Shown here: positions 12,084 through 24,953 of the stretch, one piece after another
Position numbering within the stretch: the first letter of the stretch is position 1
Layout of the letters: each line of letters starts with the position of its first letter
Program-made: the position numbers and the translations under genes
Assembly: GCA_902780985.1 (NCBI GenBank)
Contig: CACZHN010000036.1
Location: forward strand, 1-26,268
DNA: 26,268 nt
Direction of reading: 5' to 3'
Source of the DNA: an uncultured Lachnospiraceae bacterium
GTDB taxonomy: Bacteria > Bacillota_A > Clostridia > Lachnospirales > Lachnospiraceae
The notes under the pieces: generated by a model
What the model was told of the DNA's origin: nothing
Seen by the model: the letters and a program-made list of their open reading frames with translations, nothing else
Databases searched by the model: none

Positions 12084-13715
12084 CTATAAATCTCCCAAAG
12101 CATGTCTTGCGGCAATCATGCCGAATGTATAACATTTTCCGAGAGACAGTCCTGTCTGGTGGAACGGATAATCCGCGCCTCCGTAGAACCCGCCTCCGAG
12201 ATTTCCTACGCAGTAAAGCCCTTCGATTACATTTCCGTCATCATTAAGCGCCTGACCGTTTTCGTTAACCGAAATACCGGAAACCTCCGCAGAAACACGT
12301 ATATGCTTTCTTGCGCCCCAGAACGGAGCCTTCTCGATCTTATTCATGTACTTGGCAGGCTTACCGAAATCCGTATCGCATCCCGACTCGCAAAGCTGAT
12401 TATATCTGTCAATTGATTCCTTCATCTTATCGTAAGGAATATCCAGTTCTTTTGCAAGCTCTTCGAGAGTATCGCATCTGTGAAGATCTATCAGATTCTT
12501 GAACACACCCTGAGGATTCTCAACCGCTCCCGGAATGAACTTCTCCATAACCACCGGCGGAACCGGTCCGTCAACGAAAGCTTCCTTCGGAAGTGACATA
12601 TAGTCGTTATCGTAGATCATGCAATACCAGCCCTTTGAGCCTTCCGGATGATCCGGATCCAGCATGGAACCCTTATATGACGGCTGATTTCGGAGGATGT
12701 TCCCCATATAAACAAAGCCTGTATATTCGTTGGTGAAACGCTCGCCCTCCATGTTGAGATAGAGGAACGGCTCTTCAAACATGAGTGCGGAATCGAAGTC
12801 GTGCATCATCTTTGTGTGGCCAAGCGGCTCCATATGTGCGCCTGCCTCGATAGCAAGGATGTGTCCGTCTCCCGTCTTGCCGCGCTGCTTCTTATCAAAA
12901 TCGGAAATGTCAGGGCAGTACTTATCAACCATGGCCGGATTATTTGTATAATCTCCTGTTGAAAGGATAACTGCCTTGGAGGCATTGAACTGAATGTACT
13001 CACCGTCGGAATTCTTACCGATGACTCCCGTAACCCTGTTTCCGTCCTTCAGTATCTTTACTGCAGGTGTAGAGAAAAATGTCTCCAGGTTCGGACATTT
13101 CTCCGATATATTCTTTACGATATTTCTGAGGGCGTGGCCTGTGTTAAACGGCTTCGGTCCGATCCACGGAGCCCAGAAATAACAATGATCGTCACCGTAG
13201 TCGTATGTGTTGGTCCTGTCCTTCCATACGCCCGTAAAGTCTCCGCTGGTACTTCTGAATGCACACAGCTTATCGCCGTCATTGAGAAGCGCTGCGGAAT
13301 TTGCGTTATCATCTACCTTGCTTCCGTCACCGTACTCGGTCTCTTTTGTGAAGCCGGCACGATTGTAAAGCCAGATCATGGCTTCCTCGGAATACTTTGC
13401 ATAAGCACGAAGCTGCTTGGTATCTGCTCTCCAGTCGCAGAGACTGTTGGTGTGGTGTATCCACTTTTCGATACCTGCTTCCGTGGAACGGGATCTGATG
13501 ATAGCGGAACCGCAGTTACCCTGAGATACCACGGTGCCTTCCTTCTGAAGAAGGGCAACCTTTGCACCCAGTTCAGCGGCCCAGCCTGCAGCCGGAACAC
13601 CGGCAGCTCCCGCACCTACAACTACAATGTCAAAATCCAAAACCTTGTCGGGAGTGATGTCTCCCGTCACGCAACCGGAGAAGTCAAGCTCCTCCTGAGT
13701 GATAATACTTTTCAT
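12084..13715 (-). CDS. FAD-dependent oxidoreductase, fumarate reductase/flavocytochrome c-like flavoprotein
   Basis: The protein of about 543 aa has the FAD Rossmann motif IVVVGAGAAGVPAAGWAAELG (GxGxxG near residue 36) and the C-terminal FAD-contact region GLYCVGNLGGGFYGGADYP with SLGKCYTFGMIAARHA. This places it in the FAD_binding_2 superfamily (fumarate reductase, 3-ketosteroid dehydrogenase, urocanate reductase), which reduces activated double bonds or does the reverse. No signal peptide, heme motif or FMN-binding domain is present, so it is cytosolic and needs a partner. ATG 13715 is chosen; a GTG at 13721 is also possible (AGGGG 5 nt upstream). It lies 63 bp after hypE on the same strand, probably as the last gene of the nitrogenase-like/hyp operon, although a weak terminator may sit between. 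A redox partner or downstream enzyme role is inference. Confidence 0.88.
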   Translation of the reverse strand: MKSIITQEELDFSGCVTGDITPDKVLDFDIVVVGAGAAGVPAAGWAAELGAKVALLQKEGTVVSQGNCGSAIIRSRSTEAGIEKWIHHTNSLCDWRADTKQLRAYAKYSEEAMIWLYNRAGFTKETEYGDGSKVDDNANSAALLNDGDKLCAFRSTSGDFTGVWKDRTNTYDYGDDHCYFWAPWIGPKPFNTGHALRNIVKNISEKCPNLETFFSTPAVKILKDGNRVTGVIGKNSDGEYIQFNASKAVILSTGDYTNNPAMVDKYCPDISDFDKKQRGKTGDGHILAIEAGAHMEPLGHTKMMHDFDSALMFEEPFLYLNMEGERFTNEYTGFVYMGNILRNQPSYKGSMLDPDHPEGSKGWYCMIYDNDYMSLPKEAFVDGPVPPVVMEKFIPGAVENPQGVFKNLIDLHRCDTLEELAKELDIPYDKMKESIDRYNQLCESGCDTDFGKPAKYMNKIEKAPFWGARKHIRVSAEVSGISVNENGQALNDDGNVIEGLYCVGNLGGGFYGGADYPFHQTGLSLGKCYTFGMIAARHALGDL

Positions 13716-13759
13716 CTTCACTTTAACCCCTTTTATTTATTTTGCATTCACAGTCAATC

Positions 13760-13786
13760 AAAAAAGCATTCATGATGTCGGTGCTT
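13760..13786 (-). terminator. Weak terminator-like hairpin after hypE
   Basis: On the minus strand AAGCA, beginning in the hypE stop codon, pairs with TGCTT around a 13-nt loop and is followed by a T-run. The 5-bp stem is too weak for strong termination; it may reduce transcription into the FAD oxidoreductase gene. Confidence 0.3.
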
Positions 13787-22843: not shown

Positions 22844-24216
22844 AGGCAGCTGTCGCACCCCCATCCCTTATGACTTATTGTCTTCTTTGTATCCTTCGGT
22901 GTCGTGAAAGCTTCTTCCATAAGCCCTGCCAGCTTCAGAAGGGCATCGTATCCGAACATACCGCCGCCTTCCACTATGTCCACAAATCTGTCTGTGCCTG
23001 TGAAATATGCGGCCTTCTGTCCGATGGCCAGAACCTTTACAGCACCTGTTTCACATACGTCCTTTGATCCGCATGTTCCGCAGGAAGCGGCAAATCTCAT
23101 AGCCGGATCGTTGGTCGGATACAGTTTTATATCACTGTTCTTTTCATCGGATATGACTCTGTCAAATGCATCCCTTTCGTCTGCAGGGAAGTTATCCGAA
23201 TATATTCTCTTTACATTAAATCCGTGTCTGATAAGAACTTCGGCAAGCTCGATGATATAAGGGTAAGCCGTATAATCTACAGCTATCTCCGTGTCCCCGA
23301 TAACTTCACGGGCTCTGTCCAGTGCGGCTCCCGCCTTGGCCTTACGTTCCCGGATCCATACACTGACTGCATCTCTTTCCAATCCAAGTTCTTCTCCGAA
23401 CTTAAGCAGGCTTTCGTCCATCTTTTCCTCGTCAAATCTGAGAGGTACGCGGCTCCACTCGCAGTCCAGTCTTTCGGTAAGCTGCTTTGCCGCCGCATCG
23501 GATACGGAAAGATAAGTAACTATCCTTCCCGCGGAACCCAGTTTCAGGTATTCGTCGTAATTCCCGCAGTCGGCTATATCCCAGACTTTTCTGCCCGACA
23601 TTTTAATAAGTTCTGCCAGGTCGGATTCCTTATCGTTCGGAAGATTTGTTCCGATCATTCCTACCAGGTTATCGTCTCTCTCAAGCTTCTTTACCGCTTC
23701 GTAGAGACTTATCTTCATCATGGCATCCGGCGACATGGTCTTACGCATGGTCGGGATCATGTAGCACTCTACAAAGTCTATGCCGGGATACATTTCCGAA
23801 AGTTCGTCTGTGATCATCATAAAATCACAGCCCTCGAACATATGCATGCAGCTGAGATAGATCAGCACGCATCTCGGCTTCTTATCCATACGGTCAACAA
23901 TGTGAGCCGTGCCTTCTATAACACGCTTCTCCATTTCTCCGTTCCACATATCTTCTTCTCGGAGAGCTACCCATGACATACGGGTGGTCTCATTCATTTC
24001 CGCCGCTGTAAGAATAACACCTCTGAGGCATCCCTGAGCGCAGACATAAACCTGATGAGCCTCCGGGATCAGCATGCCGGTGTGGACGATGTTCCACACA
24101 CCTCTGGCCGGAGCGTTGTACTGCAGTCCCTCATAGAAAGGCGCGCCAAAGTCGATATCCTTCAGGAGCACAGGTTCCGGTATTCTGTTTTCTTTTGTAT
24201 GAAGAGATTTGATCAT
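22840..24216 (-). CDS. Nitrogenase component 1-like protein, NifD-type partner (module 1)
   Basis: The 458-aa protein is a nitrogenase component 1 homologue, the largest of the four here. Cys59 and Cys63 (YVCAQGCLRG) and Cys123 and Cys130 (LSCMHMFEGCD) fall where NifD-type proteins bind the bridging cluster. A further motif CGTCGSKDVC (about 378-387) and a C-terminal WGCDSCL (CxxC in the last six residues) are additions not expected in NifD and could bind another cluster or metal. The GGGMFGYDALLKL segment matches the end of the module 2 paralogue. It overlaps the NifH-like gene upstream and the partner gene downstream by 4 nt each. The substrate is unknown. It is not a molybdenum nitrogenase in any way I can support. 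Confidence 0.85.
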   Translation of the reverse strand: MIKSLHTKENRIPEPVLLKDIDFGAPFYEGLQYNAPARGVWNIVHTGMLIPEAHQVYVCAQGCLRGVILTAAEMNETTRMSWVALREEDMWNGEMEKRVIEGTAHIVDRMDKKPRCVLIYLSCMHMFEGCDFMMITDELSEMYPGIDFVECYMIPTMRKTMSPDAMMKISLYEAVKKLERDDNLVGMIGTNLPNDKESDLAELIKMSGRKVWDIADCGNYDEYLKLGSAGRIVTYLSVSDAAAKQLTERLDCEWSRVPLRFDEEKMDESLLKFGEELGLERDAVSVWIRERKAKAGAALDRAREVIGDTEIAVDYTAYPYIIELAEVLIRHGFNVKRIYSDNFPADERDAFDRVISDEKNSDIKLYPTNDPAMRFAASCGTCGSKDVCETGAVKVLAIGQKAAYFTGTDRFVDIVEGGGMFGYDALLKLAGLMEEAFTTPKDTKKTISHKGWGCDSCL

Positions 24217-24953
24217 TTCATTATCCTGTCTGCTGCATCAAGCAGTATCTTAGTCACTTCGCTGTCCGGGTAAAGCTCCACAACGGTCTTGCCCGCTGCT
24301 TCCGCCTTCTCGAAAATGCTGTCTCTCGGTATCACTGTCAGAACTTCCGTATTAAAGTCCGCCGCCAGTTCGGCTGCTCGCTTTTCTTCATCTTCTACGC
24401 CGCGGCAGTTCAGTATGATGCCGCCCAGTTTTGCGTAGTCTCTTTTCTTGAAATTCTCTACTGCCATGGCGATATTTGCCGCAGCATATATAGACATTTT
24501 TTCACCTGAAGTTACTATATAAACTTTATCCGCATAGCCTTTGCGCATCGGCATTGTAAAACCGCCGCAGACTACGTCTCCCAGTACGTCGTAGATTACA
24601 ACGTCGGGTTTATATTTCTCGTAAGCGCCTTTTGATTCAAGGGACTCCAATGCATTTATGATTCCTCTTCCCGCGCATCCCAGTCCCGGGATCGGGCCGC
24701 CTGCCTCAACGCAGTAAACGCCAGCGGAGCTTTCCTTTACCATATCTTCCAGAGTAAAAGGCTTTCTGCTTCTTACCAGATCAAGCACGGTGGTCATTTC
24801 CTCTTTCGGTCTGAGGAGTGATGTGGAATCCGCCTTGGGATCGCAGCCGATCTGCATGACAGTAAGACCTCTCGCAGCAAGGGCCGCAGACAGGTTTGAT
24901 GAAAGCGTTGATTTACCTATTCCGCCTTTTCCGTAAATAGCGAACTTTATCAT
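24213..24953 (-). CDS. NifH-like ATPase/iron-sulfur reductase (module 1, first gene of operon)
   Basis: The 246-aa protein is a NifH-type reductase with all key residues: P-loop YGKGGIGKST (7-16), GCDPKADST, cluster Cys93 in IPGLGCAGRG and Cys129 in DVLGDVVCGGF, and LTVIPRDSIFEKAEAAGKTV near the end. It is a paralogue of the module 2 copy at 20921-21685, with the same truncated C-terminus, so the operon carries two separate electron-delivery ATPases, one per component-1 pair. AAGGAG lies 7 nt before ATG 24953. An intrinsic terminator 20 bp upstream of the start shows that expression of the whole operon is controlled in its leader RNA. Confidence 0.94.
   Translation of the reverse strand: MIKFAIYGKGGIGKSTLSSNLSAALAARGLTVMQIGCDPKADSTSLLRPKEEMTTVLDLVRSRKPFTLEDMVKESSAGVYCVEAGGPIPGLGCAGRGIINALESLESKGAYEKYKPDVVIYDVLGDVVCGGFTMPMRKGYADKVYIVTSGEKMSIYAAANIAMAVENFKKRDYAKLGGIILNCRGVEDEEKRAAELAADFNTEVLTVIPRDSIFEKAEAAGKTVVELYPDSEVTKILLDAADRIMK

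Follow-up and report, generated by a model that had tools for sequence, protein, structure and literature searches.

A nitrogenase-like operon with HypFCDE that probably replaces HydG in H-cluster assembly

Background

Why would a single operon join two nitrogenase-like modules to the hydrogenase maturases HypF, HypC, HypD, and HypE when no hydrogenase gene is named beside them? The question arises from a 26,268-nucleotide (nt) stretch of DNA from an uncultured Lachnospiraceae bacterium (GenBank assembly GCA_902780985.1, contig CACZHN010000036.1, positions 1 to 26,268; hereafter the window), in which eleven closely packed open reading frames (ORFs), 11/11 on the minus strand, run in the order H1-D1-K1-H2-D2-K2-hypF-C-D-E and end with a flavoprotein gene. 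Here, H1-D1-K1 is called module 1 and H2-D2-K2 module 2, each resembling a NifH-D-K set. A preliminary description of the window had listed the same eleven one-strand genes, with which the ORFs and family matches agree. Our best reading, to which we give a probability of roughly 0.78, is that the operon replaces HydG in the assembly of the H-cluster of [FeFe]-hydrogenases and provides a HydG-independent route to its CO/CN-iron precursor; the replacement is well supported, while the chemical steps are inferred. Comparative genomics shows the gene content and linkage of the operon, its exclusion of HydG, an alternation between synthesis and import, and a leader RNA shared by both.

H-cluster assembly is taught as requiring HydG. 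According to the accessible part of a study of acetogens (PMC9431212), HydG derives CO and CN from tyrosine and hands them over either within Fe(CO)2CN or as free diatomic molecules, and HypCDEF make Fe(CN)2CO. By the same account, five acetogens have HypCDEF but no HypA/B and five of eight have no detected HydG, with four (C. ljungdahlii, C. coskatii, C. ragsdalei, and sp. AWRP) in both lists; it leaves both absences unexplained and raises mechanisms yet to be identified. These four acetogens share with our genomes the pairing of orphan HypCDEF with undetected HydG, and the differences are that this part of the paper does not mention nitrogenase-like genes, does not join the two absences, and proposes atypical HydG candidates. 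In the open-licence PubMed Central literature, we found no paper joining nitrogenase-like genes to HydE and HydF in such a role.

Results and discussion

HydG and the operon exclude each other

A protein search with D1 yielded 3487 relatives among 8000 scored candidates, and a profile (A1) made from 29 D1 sequences located 349 encoding stretches on contigs of one genome per species, of which the best 80 loci were kept and their genes annotated by homology. These loci, mostly from metagenome-assembled genomes (MAGs), span Bacillota, Lentisphaerota, and Spirochaetota, and by their record titles belong to Lachnospiraceae, Eubacterium, Ruminococcus, Clostridiaceae, Mogibacterium, Lentisphaerota, and one Spirochaetaceae. 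HydG (TIGR03955) exceeded its cut-off in none of the 70 genomes with D1 that were searched (0/20 and 0/50). Weaker matches of 171–228 bits, 10 in the 20-genome set and 19 in the 50-genome set, were rejected as HydG: none extends past position 400 of 470, and the two of these 29 that were rescanned are ThiH (511 and 495 bits against a cut-off of 380). In Clostridiaceae BL-3 (G011, locus L043), the top HydG match is ThiH.

A phylum sample of 199 genomes around genome G006, requested at completeness 90, contained HydF in 111 genomes and HydG in 104, all of them HydF-positive, and D1 above 400 bits in four, all HydF+HydG−. D1 was thus present in 4/7 HydF+HydG− genomes versus 0/104 HydF+HydG+ genomes (Fisher p 5.8e-6), or in 3/6 once the centre genome was left out (p 9.3e-5), in tests that treat genomes as independent even though relatives are not. 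In a family sample of 248 genomes around R. bicirculans (G014), subject to the same dependence, D1 occurred in 31 (30 at ≥532 bits), HydG in 108, and HydF in 137 at E ≤1e-80 (135 over the cut-off); strong D1 marked 28/31 HydF+HydG− genomes versus 0/106 HydF+HydG+ genomes (p 4e-26), and HydG was found in 0/30 strong-D1 genomes. Removing the genomes already known to carry D1 (G014, G265, and G234) left strong D1 in 26/29 HydF+HydG− genomes. Because G403 has a truncated D1 next to HydE and HydF, broken off where its contig ends, 29/31 is the fairer family-sample count. Two genomes, G234 and G457, have D1 but no HydF match, and the G457 contig stops inside HydE. Gaps in MAGs can hide single genes, but not by themselves create mutual exclusion.

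The operon is linked to HydE, HydF, and [FeFe]-hydrogenase

The genes that recur upstream of the operon score in locus L054 as HydF (548 bits against a cut-off of 326) and HydE (577 against 255), and one or both adjoin it in 44 of the 64 loci whose sequence extends 3.5 kb or more upstream of D1 (HydE in 41, HydF in 34). Neither adjoins it in L001, the genome of which (G001) has HydE and a HydF piece on another contig (L142). All 20 related genomes tested encode [FeFe]-hydrogenase (PF02906). The neighbouring hydE and hydF, the [FeFe]-hydrogenase in 20/20 genomes, and the mutual exclusion with HydG together point to H-cluster assembly as the destination of the operon.

No hydrogenase subunit, hypA, hypB, nifB, nifE, or nifN is named among the 22 scanned ORFs of the window, in a scan that left out a few ORFs (e.g., 1–1383, 3098–3349, and 9442–9753); this bears out the absences listed in the preliminary description. 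Its characterization of the operon as being without hydrogenase holds only for the window as scanned, relatives having [FeFe]-hydrogenases elsewhere in the genome. Compared with HydEFG maturation, HydE, HydF, and the [FeFe]-hydrogenase are all present in these genomes and the same H-cluster precursor would result, the difference being that HydG, detected in 0/70, is apparently replaced by the nitrogenase-like modules together with HypFCDE or an importer.

Two architectures alternate between synthesis and import

Class A, comprising 65 of the 80 loci, has the order (hydF)-(hydE)-H1-D1-K1-H2-D2-K2-hypF-C-D-E. Where at least 9 kb of downstream sequence is available (45 class A loci), the full set of H1, D1, K1, H2, D2, K2, hypF, and hypD is present in all but one (44/45); in that one, L010, hypC-D-E lie on a separate contig of the same genome (L143). 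Since the order recurs in 44/45 such loci, and across phyla, the operon is not a chance assembly, and the co-occurrence that the preliminary description had offered as a check is found. Class B (10/80) consists of a permease and an ATPase, (hydE), H1-D1-K1, a binding protein, and (hydF), without module 2 and without hyp genes. Five loci fall in neither class, four of them stopping less than 1 kb from D1 and the fifth being L060. Beyond the 80 loci, genome G069 is class B, and G087 and G153 have the genes of class A in a rearranged order, in G087 behind the [FeFe]-system regulator TM1266. In two Clostridium loci, H1 and D1 are fused into a single protein (L043, 9212–11332, 706 amino acids; L069, 9236–11332, 698 amino acids), which ties H1 to D1. 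These fusions are the only long ORFs with an in-frame P-loop start; very long versions of D1, D2, H1, K1, and K2 in Lentisphaeria loci were dismissed as read-through artefacts of the ORF caller.

An importer together with module 2 and hypFCDE was found in 0/80 loci. Among 20 genomes searched, HypD was absent from 10/10 class B genomes and present in 10/10 others. The class B importer appeared as a FecCD/BtuC-like permease, an ATPase, and a weakly IsdE-like binding protein, all below curated cut-offs. Locus L060 groups with L051, L047, and L067 within the class B clade in a quick D1 tree whose long branches make deep joins unsure. Its alignment with L051 breaks off at 9188 and picks up at 9225, and in between L051 carries some 2.1 kb that include the permease and ATPase; an unrelated 517-amino-acid ORF stands in place of the binding protein, and a 76-residue ABC-like match (8739–8966) lies in the L051-shared part upstream of the importer. 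The genome of L060 (G257) has HypD on a contig with D2-K2-hypF-C-D-E, which could be contamination (L134 versus L060: tetranucleotide correlation 0.77, guanine-cytosine content 0.48 versus 0.52); the missing importer genes at L060 stand independently of that contig. Module 2 and hypFCDE thus behave as one unit that alternates with the importer, and module 1 is common to both classes.

The preliminary description had named nitrogenase-like genes occurring without hyp genes as one of two findings that would make the link accidental. Such genes do exist, in 10 genomes, yet the link is no accident, because the hyp-less loci carry the importer and the same leader RNA.

A leader RNA is shared by makers and importers

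Upstream of H1 in the window lie a promoter-like site (TTGACA-17-TACAAT with an extended −10; 25169–25141, minus strand), a conserved element, and a terminator hairpin (25006–24979, minus strand) that ends the candidate leader RNA (24973–25090, minus strand), all before the first gene; this leader was missed in the preliminary description. The promoter-like site, with 11/12 consensus matches, was the best of 23 in the region against a shuffle mean of 16.6, and the scan gives no evidence of function. A pattern search found the leader element in 16 loci besides the window. A model (R1) was then built from 15 leader sequences, among them that of the window (81.9 bits), so that training members match by construction; class B and Ruminococcus leaders were absent from the training. 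R1 gave 51 matches at E ≤1 in the window and the 80 loci, of which 44 at E ≤ about 0.02 (43 in loci) were kept and seven at 0.28–0.82 dropped. As many as 41 of the 43 lie on the same strand as, and at most 450 nt upstream of, an operon gene: H1 (as in L060), hydE, or hydF, D1 in L006, and the permease in class B loci L047, L049, L051, L058, L066, and L067. Of the remaining two, one lies 1.3 kb upstream of D1 in L004, and the other is the second of two copies in L011 (945–1048 and 7970–8075); this second copy follows H2 close to the contig end. The leader also precedes the class B operon of G069 (L135).

Covariation was assessed in an alignment (A4) of 44 sequences that was fitted to R1 and so leans towards the model structure. 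In it, 95.6% of cells pair, versus 32–52% in slid structures, and double-sided changes occur in 148 cells versus a shuffled mean of 40 (0/500 as high); the number of pairs with any double change is unremarkable (13 versus 11.5, with 79/500 shuffles as high). Two GA-opposite-GA loops flank the covarying stretch of the helix. No Rfam 15 family reached its gathering score in the window, and when the leaders of the window, L051, and L021 were searched at relaxed settings, all matches stayed below gathering scores, the best being 31.5 of 65 bits in L021. That a structured element precedes a terminator suggests a riboswitch or attenuator, and that makers and importers share the leader supports one pathway.

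Module and Hyp proteins

On the minus strand of the window, the NifH-like ATPase/reductases H1 (24213–24953) and H2 (20921–21685) fall in PF00142 (290 and 295 bits), and the component-1-like proteins D1 (22840–24216; 47 bits) and D2 (19637–20917; 108 bits) and their partners K1 (21698–22864; 119 bits) and K2 (18546–19640; 81 bits) in PF00148. None of these six proteins reached curated cut-offs for nitrogenase, dark-operative protochlorophyllide oxidoreductase (DPOR), chlorophyllide oxidoreductase (COR), or CfbC: both H1 and H2 scored 304 bits against the nifH cut-off of 394, and 303.5 and 288.6 bits against the CfbC cut-off of 402 (NF033200), the D and K proteins were far below the nifD and nifK cut-offs, and those of BchL, BchX, BchB, and BchZ (DPOR/COR) were not reached. 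In alignments of ORFs called at full length, from which all residue conservation was read, H1 keeps the P-loop and C93/C129 invariant in 56 sequences, and H2 keeps the P-loop, with C95/C131 invariant in 51; these cysteine pairs correspond to those that bind the [4Fe-4S] cluster in NifH. Many cysteines are likewise conserved in D1 and D2, among them the invariant C59, C63, C123, and C454 of D1, which also has a C-terminal GxGCxSCL motif, and K1 C44 aligns with a cysteine of the NifN half.

Predicted structures of D1 and D2 (predicted local distance difference test scores of 82 and 84) both have the nitrogenase component 1 fold, and among the 50 listed solved chains for each, the closest belong to MoFe, VFe, NifEN, DPOR, and methylthio-alkane reductase (Mar), at 10–19% identity. 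The NifE ‘TCV’ cysteine has a counterpart in both proteins, and the position aligned with the NifE ‘CSK’ cysteine, presumably the cofactor anchor, is non-Cys in both; this lack of a counterpart favours D1 and D2 as a putative reductase or scaffold without a cofactor of the iron-molybdenum (FeMoco) type. Like NifEN, DPOR, CfbCD, and methylthio-alkane reductase, each module has an Fe-protein ATPase and two component-1-like subunits of the same fold; unlike them, the operon has two complete modules in tandem, tied to HydE/HydF and Hyp. Methylthio-alkane reductase itself shows only fold similarity (13–18% identity in the listed rows). We considered and rejected a link to methyltransferase (MGC) clusters, which in the accessible text of PMC10418091 concern MarHDK-like group IV-A genes; no such neighbours are named here.

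The Hyp genes, also on the minus strand, all score over NCBIfam cut-offs: the carbamoyltransferase gene hypF (16183–18534; TIGR00143, 744 bits against 466), hypC (15920–16132; TIGR00074, 65 against 48), hypD (14812–15870; TIGR00075, 401 against 193), and hypE (13785–14789; TIGR02124, 427 against 252). HypC Cys2 is invariant (33 sequences), HypD C26, C54, and C57 are conserved (34), the C-terminal Cys of HypE is present in 96% of 26 sequences, and the zinc-finger cysteines of HypF are conserved (40). In the known chemistry of these families, cyanide is produced from carbamoyl phosphate by HypF and HypE and attached to iron by HypC-HypD. With catalytic cysteines kept, these proteins resemble those of HypABCDEF maturation of [NiFe]-hydrogenases. 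They differ in that just 2/70 operon relatives have a [NiFe] large subunit, in their linkage to nitrogenase-like genes and hydE/hydF, and in that no hypA or hypB is named in the window, a genome-wide search not having been made.

Proposed pathway and competing explanations

In the proposed pathway, HypF and HypE would make cyanide from carbamoyl phosphate, and HypC-HypD would attach it to iron. Module 2 with HypFCDE may complete or release a small Fe-CN(-CO) intermediate, which module 1 would convert, with ATP-driven low-potential electrons, to a low-valent Fe(CO)x(CN) for HydE and HydF; in importer genomes, module 1 would act on an imported equivalent of the intermediate. CO formation from CO2 is a side reaction of nitrogenase, and one module may also make CO in this way. 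As in classical maturation, HydE and HydF would then complete the [2Fe] unit destined for HydA. This division of labour between HypFCDE, module 2, and module 1 is tentative. It is likewise possible, though doubtful at present, that the whole constitutes a second, independently evolved H-cluster pathway, with HypEF cyanide from carbamoyl phosphate, two dedicated nitrogenase-like reductases, a diffusible Fe-CN-CO intermediate that other gut bacteria import rather than make, and a new riboswitch that senses it in both kinds of genome.

Several points weigh against replacement of HydG. All of the support is genomic. HydE and hydF do not adjoin the operon in 20/64 loci or in the window, and the evidence for [FeFe]-hydrogenase comes from the genomes of relatives. 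HydF+HydG− genomes without D1 occur in both samples (G097, G120, and G197; G356 and G456). G452 has HydG plus a 308-bit D1 relative, and weaker D1 matches (160–207 bits) occur in the HydG+ genomes G035, G143, and G193 of the phylum sample; all four carry other nitrogenase-like H-D-K sets (L139, L140, L141, and L148), with a similar importer beside those of L140, L141, and L148 and no hydE or hydF seen nearby. As class B lacks hyp, the imported compound would have to be the source of its cyanide, a conjecture, and as Hyp gives Fe(CN)2CO and HydG Fe(CO)2CN, ligand exchange is assumed. Lastly, in the accessible part of PMC9431212, C. autoethanogenum, C. drakei, and C. scatologenes are credited with HydG candidates identified by motif, and others with atypical candidates.

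Other explanations fare worse. HypCDEF are the classical [NiFe] maturases, and they might serve a [NiFe]-hydrogenase encoded elsewhere, with nitrogenase-like neighbours playing an unrelated role. A [NiFe] large-subunit-like gene (PF00374) does occur in two genomes (1/20 and 1/50), in G268 with a second HypD beside it, both matches spanning 68–69 profile positions in a frame of about 360 amino acids. With 68/70 genomes lacking any PF00374 match, the order conserved over phyla, and HydG excluded, we consider such a client, which the preliminary description had named as a result that would count against its proposal, very unlikely. That proposal, one pathway for the Hyp and nitrogenase-like proteins, stands as regards its not being [NiFe] assembly, since the order is conserved across phyla, the [NiFe] subunit occurs in merely 2/70 genomes, and module 2 and hypFCDE co-vary. 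Its suggested destination does not fare as well: Hyp giving D1-K1 or D2-K2 a CN/CO-iron as catalytic cofactor for a metabolic reaction of their own would suit the shared operon and the many conserved cysteines of D1 and D2, but it leaves HydG exclusion and the hydE/hydF neighbours unexplained, module 1 persists without hyp, and the NifE anchor cysteine is missing from both proteins, making it unlikely next to H-cluster assembly.

The chemical role of the modules being inferred, the operon could conceivably supply another part of [FeFe] maturation, such as the dithiolate bridge or electrons, with CO/CN coming from an unrecognised HydG substitute; other substitutes exist, given the several HydF+HydG− genomes without D1. 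Class A has HypFCDE, however, which are known CN/CO-iron builders, and the exclusion is specifically with HydG, so that this, too, is quite unlikely. Least probable is that the modules are ordinary CfbCD, DPOR, or methylthio-alkane reductase beside maturase genes by chance: the folds are the same and H1 scores 303 bits against the CfbC model, but all scores are below curated cut-offs, D1 and D2 are only 10–19% identical to the 50 listed solved chains each, and the linkage recurs over phyla.

If the operon does replace HydG, many rumen and gut fermenters, including Ruminococcus albus and R. bicirculans, mature their hydrogenases by another route. Such a route, new for one of the most unusual cofactors in biology, would bring nitrogenase-like biochemistry together with that of [NiFe]- and [FeFe]-hydrogenases in a single pathway. 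The source of the CO ligand in anaerobes would become testable, hydrogenase production would gain a new gene set, and a metal-cofactor precursor may pass between gut bacteria. Replacement would also account for the acetogens in the accessible part of PMC9431212 in which orphan HypCDEF coincide with undetected HydG.

Genomic surroundings and further observations

Adjacent operon genes overlap by up to 25 nt (D1/K1) or are separated by up to 63 nt, the widest gap being that between hypE and the final gene, which encodes an FAD_binding_2 flavoprotein (12084–13721, minus strand). This gene adjoins the operon solely in the window and L001 among the 80 loci and is probably accessory or unrelated, outside the core. 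The window between 1900 and 10748 encodes a GH39-like glycosidase, an aldo/keto reductase with a ferredoxin domain, an Fe-alcohol dehydrogenase, an epimerase, an AraC regulator, and an esterase, and looks like carbohydrate metabolism with no relation to the operon. A plasmid origin of the window was set aside, there being no match at megablast sensitivity.

Elsewhere, G268 apparently holds two Hyp systems, with a second, more divergent hypC-D-E about 5 kb from its [NiFe] large-subunit-like gene (L150, G268:C96) and the other hyp set on a separate contig (L151). A protein family of about 213 amino acids is repeated between hydF and hydE in L053, L061, L075, and L078 (15 ORFs in 4 loci, cluster c30). 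L014 has a TIGR02452-family gene (18212–19027; 192 bits against 50) between hypF and the later hyp genes, with which genes in L006, L008, and L012 were grouped by clustering alone. In the HydF+HydG−D1− genomes G120 (L131, 2185–6536) and G197 (L132, 9–5300), HydE(-like)-HydF lies beside a different ABC importer with an SsuA-family binding protein, L132 additionally having a TM1266 regulator; this importer is perhaps a further HydG-less route via import.

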